64,000 nt of DNA from positions 124,001-188,000 of the forward strand of contig NZ_JAAKDW010000001.1 of NCBI RefSeq assembly GCF_011038845.1, read 5' to 3'. The notes beneath the pieces were generated by a model. The model was not told where the DNA came from. It made no database searches and saw only the letters and a program-made list of their open reading frames with translations. Made by a program: the position numbers and the translations under genes. Shown one piece after another: positions 5,655 to 49,635 of this stretch (position 1 is the first letter of the stretch; each line of letters opens with the position of its first letter). This DNA is from Enterococcus sp. ZJ1622 (GTDB lineage Bacteria > Bacillota > Bacilli > Lactobacillales > Enterococcaceae).

Positions 5655-5886
5655 GAATAAGATTTGTTAGGTGAGGCTCCTATACAAACACAGGCTACTG
5701 CCCAAAAACGTCGAGAGACGCCAATGGGTAGAACAGGAATTGTCGAGACAAGGCTTTTCATAAGGTAGCTAAAAGCAGAGAACTGCTTTTTACGTTGTAC
5801 AGTGTCAAAACTCAACGATGAGATCATCAAAGCTTTTTTAGCATGCTTTTTCAACCTCTCGCTGAGTATTTGGCGAGAGGTTTTTT
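5655..5886 (+). promoter_or_regulatory. M-box (ykoK-type) Mg2+ riboswitch with terminator
   Basis: Conserved M-box blocks are readable in order: GTTAGGTGAGGCTCCTATAC, ACAGGCTACTGCCC, ACGTCGAGAGACGCCAATGGG, and AAGGCTTTTCATAAGGTAGC. After about 70 bases comes a terminator with arms CCTCTCGC (5855-5862) and GCGAGAGG (5873-5880), then TTTTTT. In this class Mg2+ binding favours the terminator and shuts off Mg2+ uptake genes. The gene downstream is a Mg2+ P-type ATPase, which fits. Confidence 0.93.
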
Positions 5887-8919: not shown

Positions 8920-9591
8920 ATGAAAGGCGCAATATTTGATTTAGACGGGTTACTAGTAGACACAGAAAAAACATATCGTGACGGCTGGCTTTGGGGATTC
9001 GAACAATTCGATATCGAGATCCCTAAAGAAATCGTCGATGCGTGGGGTGGAAAAAATTGGAAGCAAAGCTTTGATATCTTAGTCCAGGCAGCTGGAAGTC
9101 CTGAAAAAGTACAAGAAGTTCGAGCAAAACGCGAAGAATATTTTTATGAACAGCTTCGCCATGGAGAAATCCAATTGAAACCTTACGCAAAAGATATTCT
9201 GATAGAATTAAAAAAACGTGAATTGAAAATCGGATTGGCAACGACTACTGTTACGAAAAGAGCCACAGACATTTTGGATCAATTTGGACTGAAACCTTTT
9301 TTCGATACATTTACCTTCGGAGATGAGGTGGCGGAGAACAAACCTTCTCCAATCCCTTACCTGACCGCTTTGGAACGAACGGATCTCCTTGCTCCTGAAG
9401 CATTTGCAGTAGAAGATTCATTAGTCGGAGCAACTTCTGCTTCTAGAGCAGGGCTTGGTGTGGTGCTGATTCCCGATTCAAGCTTTGAACGGAATTACTC
9501 GAAAGAAGAGAAAGAAAAATTGAACCTTCTGACGGAAGGAAATGATCTACGAGTTGTTATTGATCTATTGGATAAAAAAACAAACAATTGA
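8920..9591 (+). CDS. HAD superfamily phosphatase / beta-phosphoglucomutase-like
   Basis: 223 residues, cytoplasmic. Motif I is FDLDGLLVDTE near residue 6, with the nucleophile Asp and acid/base Asp two residues apart. Later motifs are ATTTVTKRA (motif II Thr region) and AVEDSLVGATSA (motif IV). The helical cap between motifs I and II is of the beta-phosphoglucomutase type. Family members dephosphorylate or isomerise small sugar phosphates; the substrate is not readable. It stands alone and ends in a terminator hairpin that overlaps its last codons. Confidence 0.8.
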   Translation: MKGAIFDLDGLLVDTEKTYRDGWLWGFEQFDIEIPKEIVDAWGGKNWKQSFDILVQAAGSPEKVQEVRAKREEYFYEQLRHGEIQLKPYAKDILIELKKRELKIGLATTTVTKRATDILDQFGLKPFFDTFTFGDEVAENKPSPIPYLTALERTDLLAPEAFAVEDSLVGATSASRAGLGVVLIPDSSFERNYSKEEKEKLNLLTEGNDLRVVIDLLDKKTNN

Positions 9592-9617: not shown

Positions 9618-9678
9618 ATGCTTGACTTTTTATTTTCACTCATGTAGGTTGATTCCAACAACAGAATAATCATTTCGT

Positions 9679-9950
9679 TGATGAGGAAAGTAAGCTTGGA
9701 AGACTTTACAGAGAGACTCTGGTAGGTGGAAAGAGTCAGGTGTGAAAAGTTGAAAATGGCCTTGGAGAATAATTTGTCGATAAGTAGGCAAATTCGGAAA
9801 AAACACGTTCGACCGTTAAAACGAACACCAATCTCTCGAATAGCGAGACGTTGGACTGAGGGAAGGAAACTTCCGAAAAAAGGTGGTACCACGACATGTC
9901 GTCCTTTTACCAGCATATCTTGTGCTGGTAAAAGGACTTTTTTATTTGAA
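9679..9950 (+). promoter_or_regulatory. T-box leader 1, methionine specifier
   Basis: Stem I begins GATGAGGAAAGTA with the AGAGAG bulge region near 9709. The specifier loop reads GAA-A-ATG-G with ATG at 9756-9758. The T-box block AAGGTGGTACCACG is at 9880-9893. A strong terminator follows, with arms GTCCTTTTACCAGCA and TGCTGGTAAAAGGAC, then TTTTTT. Uncharged tRNA-Met should stabilise the antiterminator and allow transcription towards metNIQ. A second T-box follows at once. Confidence 0.9.
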
Positions 9951-9960
9951 TCATTTTTCG

Positions 9961-10230
9961 CGATGAGGTAGTAAGTACAGCAGAACATCCTTTGACAGAG
10001 AGCTTCGGCAGCTGAAAAGAAGCAAGGACTTATGCTGGAAAATGGCTATTGAGCGATTCACCCCGAGCAGATCTGTAAGGCGGTGACGGCTGCGACCGAT
10101 ATCTTGCTAGAGTATGTTTGTACTTGAAGAGGAGCTGTGCGCGAGTGCAGCTTGAACTGAGGTGGTAACACGCAAAAAGGCGTCCTCAAGAAAATGACTT
10201 TGTTCGTTTTTTTGAGGACGTCTTTTTCAT
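9961..10230 (+). promoter_or_regulatory. T-box leader 2, methionine specifier, in tandem
   Basis: Begins GATGAGGTAGTAAG, with AGAGAGC near 9998. The specifier loop again reads GAA-A-ATG-G, with ATG at 10042-10044. The T-box block is TGAGGTGGTAACACG (10158-10172), with AACA where ACCG is usual. The terminator has arms CGTCCTCAA (10181-10189) and TTGAGGACG (10212-10220), then TCTTTTT. It lies between leader 1 and the metN start, so both must be read through. Confidence 0.88.
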
Positions 10231-39600: not shown

Positions 39601-40476
39601 ATGCCAGTAGTATCAGGAGCTGAATTTTTAAAAGCTGCTCGTAAAGGCGGTTACGCTGTCGGCGGGTTCAACACAAACAACTTAGAATGGACTCAAGCTA
39701 TCCTTGAAGCAGCTGAAGCAAAACAAGCACCAGTACTTATCCAAACATCAATGGGTGCAGCTAAATACATGGGTGGTTACAAAATCTGTAAAGATTTAAT
39801 CACTGATTTAGTTGAAGCAATGAACATCACTGTTCCAGTTGCTATTCACTTAGACCACGGAGACTACGAAGCAGCTCTAGAATGTATCGAACTAGGCTAC
39901 ACTTCAGTTATGTTCGACGGCTCACACTTGCCATTTGAAGAAAACTTGAAATTAGCAAAAGACGTTGTTGAAAAAGCTCATGCTAAAGGTATCTCTGTAG
40001 AATGTGAAGTTGGTTCAATCGGCGGTGAAGAAGACGGAATCATCGGTAACGGCGAATTAGCTGACATCGAAGAATGCAAACAAATGGTTGCTACAGGTAT
40101 CGACTACCTAGCTTGCGGTATCGGTAACATCCATGGTCAATACCCAGAAAACTGGAACGGTCTAGCATTTGACCACTTACAAGCAATTGCTGATGCTGTA
40201 GGTCCAGATATGCCTTTAGTATTACATGGCGGATCAGGTATTCCTCAAGATCAAATCGAAAAAGCAATCTCAATGGGTATCTCAAAAGTAAATGTTAACA
40301 CTGAATTCCAATTATCATTTGCTGCAGCTACTCGCAAATATATCGAAGCTGGTAAAGATAAAGAAGGTAAAGGATTCGACCCTCGTAAATTATTAGCTCC
40401 AGGTAAAGCAGCGATCGTTGAAGATGCAAAAGCTCATATCGACTGGTTCGGTTCAGCAAACAAAGCGAACGCTTAA
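39601..40476 (+). CDS. fba: Class II fructose-bisphosphate aldolase
   Basis: 291 residues, the glycolytic enzyme cleaving fructose 1,6-bisphosphate. Zinc and catalytic motifs: VAIHLDHGDYEAAL, FDGSHLPFEENL, ECEVGSIGGEEDG, NIHGQYP and VLHGGSGIPQDQI. Codon use is strongly biased, as in highly expressed genes. The ATG at 39601 follows AGGAGGAATTTATT. It has its own promoter region and terminator. A second aldolase at 51560 is clearly different. Confidence 0.95.
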   Translation: MPVVSGAEFLKAARKGGYAVGGFNTNNLEWTQAILEAAEAKQAPVLIQTSMGAAKYMGGYKICKDLITDLVEAMNITVPVAIHLDHGDYEAALECIELGYTSVMFDGSHLPFEENLKLAKDVVEKAHAKGISVECEVGSIGGEEDGIIGNGELADIEECKQMVATGIDYLACGIGNIHGQYPENWNGLAFDHLQAIADAVGPDMPLVLHGGSGIPQDQIEKAISMGISKVNVNTEFQLSFAAATRKYIEAGKDKEGKGFDPRKLLAPGKAAIVEDAKAHIDWFGSANKANA

Positions 40477-43323: not shown

Positions 43324-43587
43324 ATGAAAGAAAATATCCATCCAGATTACCATCCAGTAGTGTTCATGGATTCAACAACTGGTTTTAAATTCTTGTCAGG
43401 TTCAACAAAAACTTCACAAGAAACAGTTGAATGGGAAGACGGTAATACATACCCAGTCATCCGTGTCGAAGTAACTTCTGACTCACATCCATTCTATACT
43501 GGACGTCAAAAATTCACACAAGCAGACGGACGTGTGGACCGTTTCAACAAAAAATACGGTCTCAAAGACGCAAACGCTGCGGAATAA
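43324..43587 (+). CDS. rpmE2: 50S ribosomal protein L31 type B
   Basis: 87 residues. It starts [20 protein letters not shown] and lacks the zinc cysteines, which is the type B (zinc-free) L31. ATG at 43324 follows AAAGGAGCGAAAAAATT. The last 36 bases around the stop (43553-43588) recur exactly at 46634-46669, on the far side of the bacteriocin-like cassette, so this 3' end seems to be an insertion target. The gene itself is intact. Confidence 0.95.
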
Positions 43588-43588
43588 T
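43553..43588 (+). repeat. Left direct repeat of the accessory cassette (attachment-site-like)
   Basis: 36 bases covering the last codons, stop and two following bases of rpmE2. An exact second copy lies 3081 bases downstream at 46634-46669. The bases just outside the match differ in both directions. Confidence 0.9.
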
Positions 43589-43646
43589 AAAAACGCTGAT
43601 AACTCAACGTTTAGCAGACTATCTGATAGGGATAGTCTGCTTTTTT
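43589..43646 (+). terminator. rpmE2 terminator next to the left repeat
   Basis: A small imperfect hairpin AAACGCTGA...TCAACGTTT is followed by a strong one, GCAGACTATC (43614-43623) with GATAGTCTGC (43631-43640), and TTTTTT. The same two-hairpin layout with other sequence follows the right repeat. Confidence 0.88.
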
Positions 43647-43678
43647 GCGTTTTGACCATAATGAATAGATGGATATCG

Positions 43679-44575
43679 TTACTCAAAAATGGGTGGGATA
43701 CAGTAAATTTTTTCGAATTTTATTAAATCAAATTTAAATTCATTGATTAAACTATCCATCTCTAATAATTCTAGCCCTTGTAAAATTTTCATTATTCGTT
43801 TTCGTCCTTTGATGCTATCTCCTTCTATATGACAGATTAATGCCTTATAAAATTGAATGGATATCTGAGTATCTTTTGCAAATAATAATCTATGATGAGT
43901 AGCTTCAAATTTTTGTAAGTATTGTTTAGAAAAGTGAATATTTTTGCGTTCTAACATTAAAAGAAAAGCATTATTATAAAGACTAGATAATATCGGATGA
44001 AAAATTTCAAAATCGTTGTATTTTTCAATTTTGCGTTCGATTTCTGTAAGCCTTTGGGATATATAGTTTGTATCAAAAAGAAATAGTAATGAGCTAAAAC
44101 TGATCATTTCAAATCTTCCCCACTCATTTACTTTTTCTAAATAGTTGGCAAAGTGATCTAAGTGTTCTTTATCGTTTTTATTCAGCTTACGTTTTTCTAC
44201 GGGCAGAGTATACCAATCAAAAGTTTTTATGATTAAATAGTTGCGAATATCAACAATGTCTCGTGTAGTATTTGCTTTTTTTTGAATGATTTCTAAAGTA
44301 TACTTCCGTGATCCTCTATTCTCTCTAGTAGCTTTAATAAAATCTTTTATCTTTTTATTTTTCTCTCGTATGCTATCAAGTTCTAGATATAAGACAAATT
44401 CATCCATGGTTATATTCAATTTATCAATAAATTCCAATAAAATAACAAAAGGAATGCTATTTTTTCCAGTTTCATATTTAGATAATGTATTTCTTGTTGT
44501 TATATTTTTAGCTAAATTTTTTTGAGAGATACCTCTTTCTACACGCAATTTTTTAAGTAATTCCCCGCTATCCAT
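43679..44575 (-). CDS. XRE/Rgg-like regulator of the bacteriocin-like cassette
   Basis: 298 residues when started at 44575, which has GGAGCGGTGAT directly upstream; a longer frame to 44650 lacks support. An N-terminal helix-turn-helix (GELLKKLRVERGISQKNLAK) precedes a long all-helical C-terminal domain, the layout of Rgg/MutR-type peptide-responsive regulators. It is divergent from the precursor gene, with a 258-base intergenic region, so it probably controls that gene. The sequence is AT-rich compared with rho and rpmE2. Its start resembles the regulator at 4123. Confidence 0.75.
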   Translation of the reverse strand: MDSGELLKKLRVERGISQKNLAKNITTRNTLSKYETGKNSIPFVILLEFIDKLNITMDEFVLYLELDSIREKNKKIKDFIKATRENRGSRKYTLEIIQKKANTTRDIVDIRNYLIIKTFDWYTLPVEKRKLNKNDKEHLDHFANYLEKVNEWGRFEMISFSSLLFLFDTNYISQRLTEIERKIEKYNDFEIFHPILSSLYNNAFLLMLERKNIHFSKQYLQKFEATHHRLLFAKDTQISIQFYKALICHIEGDSIKGRKRIMKILQGLELLEMDSLINEFKFDLIKFEKIYCIPPIFE

Positions 44576-44697
44576 ATCACCGCTCCGTTCTTTTATAATT
44601 GTTATGCGCAAATTAATCACAAAATGAAAATAATACGTATTTTTAATCATAATAACATAGTAGATAAAATAAAAATACGGGAGGTGTGTATTTAATA

Positions 44698-44784
44698 TTG
44701 AAAATCGGGGATAGGCTGTTACTTGGGTGGTGGATAGATTGTCGATTGATTATTTTTTCTAAAGGAGAAAGGGGATGGGAATAG
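44698..44784 (+). CDS. Possible small ORF in the divergent control region
   Basis: TTG at 44698 opens 28 codons (MKIGDRLLLGWWIDCRL...) with GGGAGGTG about 13 bases upstream, which is a long spacing. It lies between the regulator and the precursor, where Rgg systems often keep a short pheromone gene, but it lacks a clearly hydrophobic export end. It could equally be a chance frame in a leader. Low confidence. Confidence 0.2.
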   Translation: MKIGDRLLLGWWIDCRLIIFSKGERGWE

Positions 44785-44833
44785 AGTAATACTAAATGAA
44801 AAGAAGCTTACAAAAGATAAAGGAGGAATTTGG

Positions 44834-45655
44834 ATGTCATATCTAATAAAAATTTTATGTAAGATAAGTATGGTAAAAGTTGGAACAATTTTTGCTTTAT
44901 CACTAATATTAGTTAGCTCATTTATCCCAATTTTAAATGTTTCTGCAGGTGAAGCAGTTTTTTCTGTGACAACGAATGAAAAAATGATTTCAGATTTTAC
45001 GGATGAAGAATTAGATACATTTGGGAAAATGTCTGATATTATGGAAACTACAAAGTTAGTAAGTAAAACAGAAACTAATGACATGAAGTCAAGATTTCAA
45101 AATGAATTACGCAATAGAAACATTATTATTCATGTACCAGAAAGCTCATTAGATTTAACAAATGTGAAAGTTCTGCAAGTTACACAAAATTCAGAGGATT
45201 TTTATACGATCACAGTGCCTATAGTAGGCGAAGGCTATAATTTATTTAGTAATTTGACGGTTACTTATAGTCAGAATGGGGAAAATGAAGGATATCAAGA
45301 AACTATTATTAGTCAAGGATTGAACAATAAAACTCAGATTGAATCTTACGTAAACGGTAAATTGACGAAATCTGATTTACTTAATGAAGAGTTTTTATCT
45401 AACGAGCAAATTAAGAAGGACATGCAAAATGTACAAAAACAAGGAGCTTTGTTACCTCAGAGTAGAGGTGTTGCTGCTAAAATTGCTTGTATTGTTGTTG
45501 TTCTTGGTATTAGTAAATACGTTGCGACTATAATTGCAGGAGCTTGTGTTGGTTCATGCCCAGCTATACCGGTAATTTGTGCTGCTTGTATTGGGGGGGT
45601 TGTAGCTTTAGGCACTGGTACGATGAGTTCTGTAGTAGCTTGTTTTAAACTTTGA
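44834..45655 (+). CDS. Secreted precursor with cysteine-rich hydrophobic C-terminal peptide (bacteriocin-like)
   Basis: 273 residues. A Sec-type signal peptide (hydrophobic ~15-32, ending near VSAG at 36-39) is followed by a ~170-residue hydrophilic region without cysteine. The last ~62 residues after QSR (209-211) are hydrophobic and glycine/alanine-rich and hold six cysteines at 219, 238, 242, 249, 252 and 270. This is the arrangement of halocin C8-like precursors, where a long propeptide is cut from a disulfide-rich hydrophobic toxin. A thioredoxin-like gene follows. Bacteriocin activity is inferred; no family match was run. ATG at 44834 follows AAAGGAGGAATTTGG. Confidence 0.7.
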   Translation: MSYLIKILCKISMVKVGTIFALSLILVSSFIPILNVSAGEAVFSVTTNEKMISDFTDEELDTFGKMSDIMETTKLVSKTETNDMKSRFQNELRNRNIIIHVPESSLDLTNVKVLQVTQNSEDFYTITVPIVGEGYNLFSNLTVTYSQNGENEGYQETIISQGLNNKTQIESYVNGKLTKSDLLNEEFLSNEQIKKDMQNVQKQGALLPQSRGVAAKIACIVVVLGISKYVATIIAGACVGSCPAIPVICAACIGGVVALGTGTMSSVVACFKL

Positions 45656-45670
45656 ATGGACTGATAAGAT

Positions 45671-46132
45671 GTGAAAAAGTCGATTAAAACTAGCAGAATA
45701 ATTGTATCGTTTCTATGTCTCTTTGTGGTAGTATTCTCGTTGATTTTTTTTCAAACAAACAGACTTGGTATGAGTAATATTCTACCTGAAATCAAAACAG
45801 AGATGTTAAAATCAAAGCTTGAAGGTTCGGATACTTTCTTGTTATATGTGGGTAGACCAACCTGTATTCAATGCCAAGAAATCGAACCTACACTTCGAAA
45901 CTTATTAAAAAATGCGGGAATAAAAGTCAATTATTATAGAACTGATATAGCTCGAAACGAAGATGAAAAGAGCTTAGAGGCAGTAGCTGAAAAGCTTGAT
46001 TTAACTGTAGTACCCTCATTATTAATGATTTCTAACGGTGTTCTGATTGATAGATTAGATGGTGTTTACACTGAAAAAGCTATTTCTGAATTTTTAGAAA
46101 ATAATAAAAAATTTTTAAAGGAGGATGCATAG
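45671..46132 (+). CDS. Membrane-anchored thioredoxin-like protein
   Basis: 153 residues from a GTG at 45671, 15 bases after the precursor stop; the ribosome site is weak, so translation may be coupled. One N-terminal membrane helix (~9-28) precedes a thioredoxin fold facing outward, with the redox motif PTCIQC (Cys 65 and 68), YYRTDIARNE, the cis-Pro region VVPSLLM and a C-terminal helix. It resembles the disulfide-forming accessory proteins found beside disulfide-containing bacteriocins (PedC/BdbB type). Most likely it oxidises the six-cysteine peptide. Confidence 0.75.
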   Translation: MKKSIKTSRIIVSFLCLFVVVFSLIFFQTNRLGMSNILPEIKTEMLKSKLEGSDTFLLYVGRPTCIQCQEIEPTLRNLLKNAGIKVNYYRTDIARNEDEKSLEAVAEKLDLTVVPSLLMISNGVLIDRLDGVYTEKAISEFLENNKKFLKEDA

Positions 46133-46297
46133 TTGTTTGTCCCTATATATAGCATGATACTTCTAGGCTTATTTTTAGTATTTTGTCTTTACGCGCTGAA
46201 AATACTTCAAAAAAATAATGATGATACGCAACGTCAAATAGCACAATTAAGAAAAGATATTGAGTTGATCTTGGAAAAAATTAGGGAAAATAATTAA
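46133..46297 (+). CDS. 54-residue membrane protein, possible immunity protein
   Basis: TTG at 46133 directly after the thioredoxin-like stop, with AAAGGAGG eight bases upstream. One membrane helix (~8-25, MILLGLFLVFCLYALKIL) is followed by a charged helix (DTQRQIAQLRKDIELILEKI). The layout resembles DUF4083-like small proteins. As third gene of the operon it may protect the producer or help secretion; this is inferred from position and topology. Confidence 0.55.
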   Translation: MFVPIYSMILLGLFLVFCLYALKILQKNNDDTQRQIAQLRKDIELILEKIRENN

Positions 46298-46633
46298 AAA
46301 TGGTGTATGTATGTTACCTAGTGGATGGATTTCCTGAGAAAAGGATCTGACATAAGTCAAACTAAAATTACTAACAACAAAAATTATTTTAGATTTACAA
46401 TGAAAAATATTGTCAATATGAATTTGTCGAAAAAAATTAGAAAAATACTTGACTGTTAGTGATAAGAGGACAGTGCATTAAATTCAATAGTAATCAGCAT
46501 AAAATCCCCCTAGCTAATATCTAAATACATTGACTTAGCAAATGTATATAGTGTTGAAGCAGAACAACTTAGGGCATCCATTATCTAAGTTTTTCTCTGC
46601 TTATCAGAAGCATTAGAAAGCAATCTAGCTCTC
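46298..46633. other. Non-coding right end of the cassette
   Basis: 336 bases, very AT-rich, with no convincing ORF. An inverted repeat ATACATT (46525-46531)/AATGTAT (46541-46547) is present, and no T-run terminator is obvious. If the cassette is mobile, recombinase or end-binding sites would be expected here. Confidence 0.5.
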
Positions 46634-46669
46634 AATACGGTCTCAAAGACGCAAACGCTGCGGAATAAT
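46634..46669 (+). repeat. Right direct repeat of the accessory cassette (duplicated rpmE2 3' end)
   Basis: Exact 36-base copy of 43553-43588, including the rpmE2 stop codon, but without the rest of rpmE2 upstream. It is followed by its own two-hairpin terminator. Confidence 0.9.
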
Positions 46670-46727
46670 CAAAATATTGAGGTATCAATATTTGACGGGA
46701 TTCTCTTTAAGAGGATCCCGTTTTTTT
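46670..46727 (+). terminator. rpmE2-type terminator next to the right repeat
   Basis: AAATATTGAGGTATCAATATTT forms a small hairpin, then CGGGATTCTC (46696-46705) pairs with GAGGATCCCG (46711-46720), followed by TTTTTTT. Same layout as at 43589-43646, with different sequence. Confidence 0.88.
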
Positions 46728-46910
46728 GTGTACTATACTTATAGGAATCAGGTGCGATCAATCTACTGATCGAAAGGTATAATGATCACTTTGCTTTTTT
46801 TTACAGTAGAAAGGTATTTTATTACATAGAGCTTAAACGCCGTTTTAAATATGATAAAATGAAAATGAAGGAAATTTTGTATAGAAGATAAACGAAAAAA
46901 GGAGAAAAAG

Positions 46911-47606
46911 ATGTTTAAAATTGCTATTTGTAATGATGCGGAAGAAATAAATTCGCAAATTGAAGCATTTATTCATGCATATAGTCTCAATTCGTATAAA
47001 GTAGATGTCTTTCCTGATTCTCATTCACTGATTCAATCACTAAAAAATAATGATCATATGTTATATTTTCTCAATATTGAGAAGGATAACCAAGGAGTAG
47101 AGGTAGCCAAAACGGTGAGAAAATATAATCTCAATGCTTTTATTGTATTTCTCGCAAATCATAAGAAATATATGAGTGAAATATTTGAAATACGTACATT
47201 TGATTATGTGTTAAAACCTATTACTAAAGAAAGGGTTTTTAGAATCATGGATGATATTTCCCGTCTGCTGAATTTAAGCAAAAAGCAATTTGTTTTTTCA
47301 GTTAATAATATGAATAATTATATTTCTTTTGGAGAAATTATATATTTTGAAAAACATAAAAGACAAACAATGCTTCATCATGTATCTGGTATGAGTAAAG
47401 TTTTTTATATGAATACGGATCAGATATTAGAACAATTAGATGCCTGTTTTACACAGATACATACTTCTTTCATTATCAATATAAATTTTGTTAGACAAGC
47501 AAGTAGAACGAAAGTTATCTTAAATAATCATCGAGAAATAGAATTACCGATCAGTAGAAAATATAGAGAGAATGTATCCAATAAATTCATTCATTTACAA
47601 AAATGA
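46911..47606 (+). CDS. LytTR-family response regulator with degenerate receiver
   Basis: 231 residues: receiver-like domain (~1-120) and LytTR DNA-binding domain (~130-230: YISFGEIIYFEKHKRQTMLH, then FTQIHTSFIININFV). The position of the phosphate-accepting Asp is occupied by Asn55 in LYFLNIEKD, so normal phosphorylation is unlikely. No histidine kinase gene is next to it. AgrA/ComE-type LytTR proteins often control peptide or bacteriocin genes. ATG at 46911 follows AAAAGGAGAAAAAG. The likely target is the next gene. Confidence 0.82.
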   Translation: MFKIAICNDAEEINSQIEAFIHAYSLNSYKVDVFPDSHSLIQSLKNNDHMLYFLNIEKDNQGVEVAKTVRKYNLNAFIVFLANHKKYMSEIFEIRTFDYVLKPITKERVFRIMDDISRLLNLSKKQFVFSVNNMNNYISFGEIIYFEKHKRQTMLHHVSGMSKVFYMNTDQILEQLDACFTQIHTSFIININFVRQASRTKVILNNHREIELPISRKYRENVSNKFIHLQK

Positions 47607-47830
47607 TTTGATGTAAAAAATATATATTAGCTAACTTTTCCTTGGATAAATAAGCATACATCAAAAAAGTTAAAACTAAAGTACAGAGGAAGCAAAAAAG
47701 ATTATTCGTCAAATAAGTAACGTGTTTGTTGATATGTATTGAATACCGAAAAATGAGAACGTTTTATAAAGGCGTATGATAAACGAAAAACTTAATAGAA
47801 AAAATACATAAAAGAAAGGGGGCGAAAATA

Positions 47831-48409
47831 GTGAAAAAAGCAATTGGTTTTATGCAATATAGGAAAAAAATAGGGGAAATTTCGTTGATTCATATTGTAT
47901 ACCCGGTTTTTAATCAAAATAGTAAACGAATGTCTACTGTGCCAATTGCAAGAGGGATAATTGCAATCGGACCGATTTCAATTGGGTTAGTTTCTTTTGG
48001 AATCATGGGATTGGGACTTTTCACCTTTGGATTATCTAGTTCTGGGATTTTAAGTGCGGGGATTGTTCCATTAGGAATCATTGCTGTGGGAACTATTCCT
48101 ATCGGCTACTTAGCGTTAGGGAATATCGCGTTTGGTTTTCAATCTTTTGGAAATATTGTGTTTGGAAAATGGGCGTTAGGAAATATTGCATACGGAGAAA
48201 ATACCATAAGCTTAGGGAATCGTCCTCAATTTTCTCAAGTAAAAGAGGCTATAGTAGAGATGGATGGAATAGTAAATAATAAGATAAATATGTTTAATGT
48301 AATGGATGGCATCATTGAATCCCTTGAATGGTTTTGGGTAATAATTGCTATAAGTTTCTTAGTTGTATGTTTAATGTGCAGAGGTAATATATTTTCGTTG
48401 AAGATATAA
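47831..48409 (+). CDS. Membrane protein with glycine pentad repeats
   Basis: 192 residues from a GTG at 47831 that follows AAAGGGGGCGAAAATA. Gly recurs at every fifth residue from 42 to 122 (17 times), with hydrophobic or small residues between, for example IIAIG PISIG LVSFG. A membrane helix lies near 168-186. Regular five-residue turns suggest a beta-solenoid-like or membrane-embedded fold, akin to but not the same as A(D/N)LXX pentapeptide proteins. I recognise no function. It follows the LytTR gene by 224 AT-rich bases. Confidence 0.7.
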   Translation: MKKAIGFMQYRKKIGEISLIHIVYPVFNQNSKRMSTVPIARGIIAIGPISIGLVSFGIMGLGLFTFGLSSSGILSAGIVPLGIIAVGTIPIGYLALGNIAFGFQSFGNIVFGKWALGNIAYGENTISLGNRPQFSQVKEAIVEMDGIVNNKINMFNVMDGIIESLEWFWVIIAISFLVVCLMCRGNIFSLKI

Positions 48410-48518
48410 TCTACTGGACCCTTCCAGTCATTTGATTAGTACTCATGGAGTGGTATTCAAACAAGATTCAGGGTTATTTTCTTGGCGTTATTTATAAATA
48501 GCACTAGGAGTGTTAGAA

Positions 48519-48921
48519 GTGAAGTATAAAAAAATTTATTCTCTTATTCTAGTAACAATATTATTATGTACGGCTTGTTCATCTCCCGCTGATCAACCGA
48601 AGAAAAAAAACTAGAATTATCAAAGGCGGAATGGGAGAAGTTAACTTTTTTTGTGGAGAATGGGTATATACGGAAGATGAATCGATATGGACAATCAATA
48701 TTGATAAGTATTCAATAGGTATTTCATATGATAAACACCAGTTTAACGGTTTTTTCACAGGTATAAAAGTAGATGATGAATTAACGATATATTGTGAAGA
48801 CCATCAATGGTCCTACATATTGGATAAGAGAGATGAAGAGCGTATATTCGTTATACGCAGTAAATTAGGTTCTGGAACGACTTCAAATGTAATGGGAATA
48901 GAGTTAATTAAAATAAAGTGA
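48519..48921 (+). pseudogene. Lipoprotein gene broken by a frameshift at a poly-A run
   Basis: GTG at 48519 with AGGAG upstream opens a lipoprotein signal (LILVTILLCTACSS, lipobox CTAC) that stops at TAG directly after an eight-A run (48603-48610). Removing one A joins the frame to the one at 48631-48921, which reads on from GGMGEVNFFCGEWVYTEDES to the end. The joined product would be about 133 residues. Family unknown. It may be a real mutation, a phase-variable tract or a sequencing error. Confidence 0.6.
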
Positions 48922-48937
48922 GGTAACTAGGATAATT

Positions 48938-49229
48938 ACAACAAAGGAGAGCAAATAAAGAAATTTAATTTTGTGTTGATTATTTTTAAGTTGTGCTGAT
49001 ATTTGGTTTTACAAATCGATTAGATTATGCGGTGCCAGTGGAAGGCGTTGTTCGATCCAATATTGTGAGTTATACTGGAAATCTTTTTGAGCGAATCATG
49101 TGGGGAAATGAAGAGTTAATAATTAATACACCAGAATTGCTATTCTATGATATTACTATTTCAGATGGCTCTATAGGAGCACCAATCATTCAGAATTCTG
49201 CTCTTGTAGGCATAACTACTACTTAAAAA
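48938..49229 (+). pseudogene. Remnant of a secreted trypsin-like protease gene
   Basis: A frame from GTG at 48993 encodes 77 residues ending YDITISDGSIGAPIIQNSALVGITTT, which resembles the C-terminal end of V8-like or trypsin-like peptidases (GNSGSP...VGI). The catalytic Ser position appears to be Ile. Just upstream AAAGGAGAGCAAATAAAG lies before a signal-like KKFNFVLIIFKLC in another frame that lacks an ATG. The catalytic His and Asp parts are missing. Family assignment is weak. Confidence 0.35.
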
Positions 49230-49635
49230 AAACAAGGAACAATGAACCAAGCTCTTGCTTTAAGACAAGAACTTTTTATTTTTTTCGCATCATAATGCAG
49301 AAATTAATAGAAAAAGTAGTAGATAGTTTTTCATTATCAATTTGATTTGATAAAAACACCCTTGTATTAACGAAATGAAGAGTGATTATTTCAAAGTACA
49401 AAAAACAATTTACCTAAAAATAGAAACCAAGCTTTCCTTTCGAGGAAGGCTTTTTGTTTTGCTAGGAACGCACGATTGCTTGTGAGCTAAATCGTTCATT
49501 TTGATGACTGAAACACTCGGATGATGGGTATTTTCCCTCTGTTCGCTCATTATATTGAACGGTACAGCTAGCGATGCTATACTGACCTCAGTTCTAAGAA
49601 AACGGTAACATTTTTTTGTGGGGGAGAGGATTTTA
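49227..49635. other. Intergenic region with two terminator-like hairpins and a promoter
   Basis: No gene. AGCTCTTGC...GACAAGAACTTTTT (49248-49276) is a weak hairpin. AGCTTTCCTTTCGAGGAAGGCTTTTT (49431-49456) is a good terminator. TTGAAC (49555-49560) and TATACT (49578-49583), 17 bases apart, form the promoter of the next PTS operon. This gap is the right edge of the AT-rich accessory region. Confidence 0.7.

Follow-up and report, generated by a model that had tools for sequence, protein, structure and literature searches.

A putative cis-mobilizable element at the 3' end of rpmE2 in Enterococcus sp. ZJ1622

An AT-rich cassette lies between direct repeats behind rpmE2

The window analyzed here is a stretch of 64,000 nucleotides from Enterococcus sp. 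ZJ1622 (contig NZ_JAAKDW010000001.1, positions 124,001 to 188,000 of the forward strand). Behind rpmE2, the gene for ribosomal protein L31 type B, it contains a cassette of ∼3.08 kb that is AT-rich (30% GC compared with 41% for the window) and is flanked by a 36-bp repeat (Table 1). The original prediction, made from the letters of the window, described identical 36-bp direct repeats bounding about 3.1 kb, with the left repeat spanning the last codons and the stop of rpmE2. Both statements were confirmed. The repeats agree at 36 of 36 bases, their starts are 3081 bases apart, and the left copy forms the end of an rpmE2 frame that is intact. No third copy is present in the window at three or fewer mismatches (0 expected from 100 shuffles), and a search of the whole genome with the 36-mer matched no place beyond these two.

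The bases flanking the two copies had also been described as different. This holds on the upstream side, where the flanks are unrelated (7/30 identical), but the downstream flanks remain weakly alike (16/30, and 14/30 over the next 30), because a terminator of the rpmE2 type is present on both sides. The right edge of the 36-bp repeat is therefore soft. The repeat is best read as the duplication of an attachment site, and its two copies are referred to below as the left and right cores. By analogy with relatives, the terminator behind the right core is probably that of the host rpmE2 gene, pushed aside by the insertion.

As predicted, the cassette lacks a recombinase: none of its four proteins matched a recombinase family, and the 4.4 kb that follow the left core gave no integrase match. 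Scans with Pfam and NCBIfam placed no conjugation or mobilization gene above cut-off among the cassette open reading frames (ORFs). Positions 43553–46669 are very likely a cis-mobilizable element (CIME), that is, a descendant of an integrative element specific for rpmE2 that no longer has the integrase, and probably foreign DNA.

Table 1. Features of the cassette and its target gene, with positions in the window
Feature	Position	Strand	Evidence or remark
rpmE2 (ribosomal protein L31 type B), target gene	43324..43587	+	87-aa ORF, frame intact; name as in the original prediction
Left attachment core, end of rpmE2	43553..43588	+	Exact 36-bp repeat
Left-end hairpin and intrinsic terminator behind rpmE2	43589..43648	+	Same type in integrase-bearing elements (for example G001, G012, G037-G039, G042-G045)
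Single left arm-type repeat TTTTGACCATA	43650..43660	+	+62 after core, same position as the first repeat of relatives
Rgg-family regulator, 323 aa	43679..44650	-	Pfam Rgg_C 7.7e-15, HTH_3 2.8e-10; TIGR01716 45.5 bits, above cut-off
Secreted-type pre-protein, 273 aa, predicted bacteriocin-like precursor	44834..45655	+	C-terminal hydrophobic domain, six conserved Cys
Thioredoxin-like protein, 153 aa, N-terminal hydrophobic stretch	45671..46132	+	Pfam Thioredoxin 1.5e-6
Small membrane-type protein, 54 aa	46133..46297	+	ORF; no family above cut-off (Pfam, NCBIfam)
Element right end	46575..46633	+	nhmmer E 1.5e-5, stops at base before core; next best in window E 1.2
Right attachment core	46634..46669	+	Exact 36-bp repeat
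Right-hand terminator, probably displaced host rpmE2 terminator	46670..46727	+	Fold; host origin by analogy with G001/G010

Integrase-bearing elements occupy the same site in relatives

The locus was compared with other genomes (G numbers, one genome per species) and with fetched stretches (L numbers). A DNA search of 15 genomes of the genus matched rpmE2 in all 15 and a second core in four of them (G000, G001, G012, and G002). In G001, where the two cores enclose 16.6 kb, rpmE2 is adjoined by a tyrosine-type integrase of 407 residues (Pfam Phage_integrase, 2e-31; arm DNA-binding domain, 3.2e-12). The integrase is followed by a 97-residue protein that matches no Pfam family and is perhaps an excisionase. 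Next come a protein of the replication type (PF23343, 6.8e-24), an Rgg-like regulator, and further cargo. Possible defence cargo of the element (L022, 10124–16877) comprises large genes that have no match in Pfam, together with an HNH-endonuclease protein and a protein with pentapeptide repeats.

The closest 15 integrase homologues, 62–100% identical, were fetched from among 105 genomes of the family (L039–L053), and every one of them adjoins rpmE2 with a core. On the same contig, a second core follows the integrase-bearing rpmE2 at 16.6 kb in G001, 17.9 kb in G037, 8.3 kb in G039, 10.0 kb in G042, 15.4 kb in G043, 74.8 kb in G044, 9.5 kb in G045, 40.6 kb in G048, 24.4 kb in G093, and 32 kb in G030. 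The core-to-core spacing thus runs from 8.3 to 74.8 kb, and each of these stretches may hold more than one element. Below 62% identity, one homologue lies behind tandem cores (G047:C23, 60%), and no rpmE2 was seen in the stretches examined for two others (G228, 57%; G047:C44, 55%). Serine recombinases were rejected as movers; PF07508 occurs in 7 of the 15 genus genomes, and none of the places listed is beside rpmE2. The original proposal that a site-specific element uses the rpmE2 3' end is borne out by these relatives, with an integrase directly behind rpmE2 and a distant second core, and by the family termini that the cassette keeps.

A search with the core pattern found it in 73 of the 105 family genomes. 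Of these, 71 rpmE2 loci were examined (the 73 minus two). A full-length integrase match was present at 15 of the 71 (with one internal stop in G012), and integrase fragments of 52–142 residues at four (G050, G056, G058, and G061); at the remaining 52, no integrase was found in the scanned stretch, which was short for two of them. From rpmE2 to the next conserved genes, the sequence varies among the genus loci compared, and the site is therefore a hotspot. A candidate for the empty sites suggested at the outset was seen in another species: the flank of G010 resembles the sequence behind the right core of G001, so that G010 looks like an empty version of the G001 site.

Decayed elements that have a second core were observed in G058 (3.8 kb, with a 142-residue integrase fragment), in G068 (6.0 kb, with no integrase match within its first 4.5 kb), and in G094 (0.8 kb, the second core matching at 28/36), and the cassette fits into this series. 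G021 was rejected as a remnant; its two cores are 9.2 kb apart, but there are no arm repeats and no right-end match. In G043, an internal right end precedes a ruined core, which points to tandem accretion. Apparent scars of accretion are also present in L104, L105, and L106 (G057, G047, and G030), where tandem cores are spaced by 217 bp and surrounded by single arm-type repeats.

The cassette retains parts of the termini of the element family

At 13 of the 15 loci whose integrase match is full-length, TTTTGACC repeats follow the left core at +62/63 and +74/75, 12 bp apart. The exceptions are G093, with repeats at +73/85, and G048, with none. A repeat pair also precedes the right core, at -127/128 and -115/116, in 10 relatives (G001, G012, G037, G038, G039, G042, G043, G044, G045, and G058), and the right cores of the other relatives have one arm repeat or none. 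One left repeat is retained in the cassette (Table 1).

A right-end profile was built from 11 relatives with the window excluded, namely 9 genomes with a full-length integrase, G058 with its fragment, and one sequence from another G030 contig. The profile recognizes the segment immediately before the right core of the cassette (Table 1). This segment is closest to the right end of G037 (46/59 identical), with a score of 63 compared with at most 25 for 394 control pieces taken from this AT-rich region, and it is hardly like that of G012 (13/16 in a short local match). When aligned without gaps, the last 20 nt before the right core match the consensus of the relatives at 18 positions. The pattern of right end and core was found in 8 stretches, from Enterococcus diestrammenae, canintestini, songbeiensis, italicus, dispar, pseudoavium, sp. 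MSG2901, and sp. MJM12, which may overlap the G-coded genomes.

These termini bear on two other explanations. A tandem duplication of rpmE2 could have left the right copy, and the rpmE2-type terminator behind both cores would agree with that. However, the sequence upstream of the right core contains no rpmE2 (7/30), but instead the right end of integrase-bearing elements, and the same layout stands beside integrase genes in relatives. An ancestral duplication, which the original prediction had named as a possible refutation, is rejected on these grounds, and we consider its probability close to negligible.

Under the second explanation, the cassette would be a mini-element that remains mobile without being autonomous, with an rpmE2-type integrase excising it in trans. 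Its cores are identical at all 36 bases though the right core is non-coding, its right end is retained, and rpmE2-type integrases occur at 15 of 71 rpmE2 loci. In contrast, the source genome has no close rpmE2-type integrase (the best homologue is 44% identical), the right arm repeats are gone, and the left pair is halved. We consider continued mobility unlikely. Among the three fates originally proposed for the cassette, dependence on an enzyme in trans finds no cognate enzyme in the genome, a remnant fits best, and homologous recombination is a possible later route of spread.

The cargo may be a bacteriocin operon

The sequences of the cassette genes suggest an Rgg-linked operon for a secreted cysteine-rich, bacteriocin-like peptide. 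The pre-protein belongs to no Pfam family, and no NCBIfam match came close to cut-off. It has matches in 15 of 395 genomes of the order, its own genome counted, and its neighborhoods were read in 12 of these 15 (all but G000, G006, and G111). At 11 of the 12 homologous loci, a thioredoxin-like match is present within ∼0.9 kb of the pre-protein, and at 6 of 12 an Rgg-like match is near it. The aligned C-terminal parts contain six common cysteines after an invariant arginine, often as Arg-Gly; the fragment G001:C29 is without one of the cysteines.

Bacteriocins assisted by PedC/BrcD, as well as halocin C8, have a secreted precursor with a cysteine-rich C-terminal part and a gene for a thiol-disulfide helper. 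The predicted layout of the cassette is similar; no family model covers the pre-protein, and its role is a predicted one. The thioredoxin-like protein scores 35.9 bits against the PedC/BrcD model TIGR01295, for which the cut-off is 120, and it has weak matches to TraF and TrbB, which are thioredoxin-fold proteins too, all under the curated cut-offs. The small membrane-type protein might, as a guess, be the immunity protein. Between rgg and the gene of the pre-protein, a frame of 32 codons (44686–44784) contains a Trp-Trp motif. It was rejected as a peptide pheromone; no counterpart was seen in three relatives.

A sister species carries the same cargo

In the sister species G006, the cargo is also situated behind rpmE2. 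The identity is 97.5% for rgg, 91% for the pre-protein gene (over 736 of its 822 bases), which is interrupted in G006, 90% for the thioredoxin-like gene, and 97.6% for the small gene. These values exceed the background of 84% for rho and 80% for murA. It is unlikely that the 97.5% identity of rgg is explained by a conserved host gene.

A decayed element may instead have reached this genome from a sister species through homologous recombination that spanned rpmE2 and its flank, a route that is compatible with the CIME reading as to the origin of the element. Windows of 200 bp from 43400 to 44755 are 95.5–99.5% identical to G006, well above rho and murA, and the identity within the cassette is uneven, as given above. 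However, rpmE2 is 94–98% identical in all 14 other genus genomes, and its high identity is therefore no sign of recombination. Furthermore, G006 has no right core, and this genome is therefore not the donor of both borders. We regard arrival by this route as possible but not probable.

Plasmids, phages, and neighboring sequence

Among 72,556 plasmid records, 114 match the ends of the segment. None contains 80% of the segment in one place, and the 20 listed cover 5%. In conjugative Enterococcus faecium megaplasmids (L069, L070, and L172; two megaplasmids), the left end of an rpmE2 element is present in a plasmid site. It consists of a core (at ∼6003 in L069/L070), the terminator, arm repeats, and an integrase fragment. 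A variant core in G002:C43 lies behind the same plasmid sequence. Plasmids may ferry rpmE2 elements. Phage records were rejected as carriers: 2 of 50,697 match, both being wastewater contigs with a piece of bacterial chromosome that includes rpmE2 and no element. Among viral contigs, one (L117) matched the right-end/core pattern and was rejected too, as it has no full core at 10 or fewer mismatches and no match to the right-end model.

A second AT-rich block (46670–49288, 31% GC) extends from the right core to a fructose phosphotransferase system (PTS) operon. It encodes a LytTR response regulator and a GLTT-repeat protein, is absent from G004, and is partly present in G006. Elsewhere in the window there are tandem T-box leaders (9669–9909 and 9954–10190) and an M-box (Mg) riboswitch (5656–5830).

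Discussion

The CIME reading would imply the following course. An element of the rpmE2-specific family, with a tyrosine integrase, would have inserted at the 3' end of rpmE2, where the incoming core restored the last codons and the stop, and a terminator was either brought along or kept behind. Later losses would have removed the integrase of the element, genes for replication or mobilization, one of the two left arm repeats, and the right ones, so that the cores and short termini stayed, with the putative Rgg-linked bacteriocin-like operon as the leftover cargo. We infer this order of events and the former presence of the lost genes. Renewed movement would be possible only through integration of a related element at a core, through the action of a related integrase on the cores, or through homologous recombination.

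Several observations weigh against this interpretation. The cassette has no second left repeat and no arm repeat within 400 nt before the right core, and the term mobilizable is therefore nominal. Over the last 40 nt before the core, an ungapped comparison gives 25/40 of the consensus and a score of 20.8, compared with 43–60 for the relatives and 9.8 for the next place in the window, and homology to the right ends of relatives was not seen beyond 60 nt. A terminator of the left type also follows rpmE2 in G004 and in the two wastewater contigs L071/L072, all without an element at that place; it is therefore not necessarily the element's own, and a host terminator was perhaps captured. An integrase-bearing element with the cargo of the cassette was not found among 21 loci, some of them partial, which gave two weak Rgg matches only. 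As to G006, it has no right core, and directly behind the opening 80 bases of a truncated PTS IIA gene it contains a close copy of the right-hand terminator (90% over 51 bases; L028, ∼9409–9459, minus strand). An ORF on the far side of murA (39601–40476) is also mostly 91–98% identical to G006, and high identity alone is therefore no proof of transfer.

CIMEs are an established class of decayed integrative and conjugative elements (ICEs) or integrative and mobilizable elements (IMEs) (PMC5704250, PMC7563491). The classical CIMEs of Streptococcus salivarius are given there as 1.2–13 kb, a range that includes the 3.1 kb of the cassette. As in those CIMEs, the left and right attachment sites (attL and attR) and the cargo are kept, whereas the integrase and transfer genes are gone; the ends are also held in common with integrase-bearing elements, apart from the absent right arm repeats. 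Unlike the CIMEs described there, the cassette stands alone without a neighboring ICE or IME, belongs to another host family, and targets rpmE2. Work related to ICESt1 of Streptococcus thermophilus reportedly bears on CIMEs as well.

Elements that target rpmE are likewise in print. In streptococci, rpmE-targeting IMEs such as IME_Sga2069_rpmE, with an integrase of family Tyr_4, are described (PMC5704250, PMC5357655), and, like the elements in the relatives studied here, these have a tyrosine integrase for which the L31 gene serves as target at its 3' end. The cassette shares this insertion site with them and has no tyrosine integrase of its own; the likeness of the enterococcal integrases to Tyr_4 is one of target gene. 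Mobile elements of Enterococcus cecorum at rpmE are mentioned in a list (PMC10117131), and this mention gives the same target gene and the same bacterial family as the cassette. Apart from it, no literature on rpmE2 or L31 as an Enterococcus integration site was found in the literature searched. CIMEs and rpmE-targeting elements are thus already described, and what is new is this putative stand-alone rpmE2 CIME.

A much broader view would hold that the rpmE2 3' end is a common docking site in Enterococcaceae, that integrase-less cassettes circulate on borrowed integrases, and that the cassette spreads undescribed bacteriocins of the Rgg-controlled six-cysteine peptide type; taken as a whole, we think this improbable. 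The cargo points to a scattered family of cysteine-rich pre-proteins with a thioredoxin-like helper that lies outside Pfam and NCBIfam, and this family is a bacteriocin candidate. The method published for S. salivarius could not identify single CIMEs, as stated in that report (PMC7563491), and the border sequences given here allow that. The core, the arm repeats, and the right end are the borders of an rpmE2 element family in Enterococcaceae, and with them lone integrase-less remnants become recognizable by sequence.

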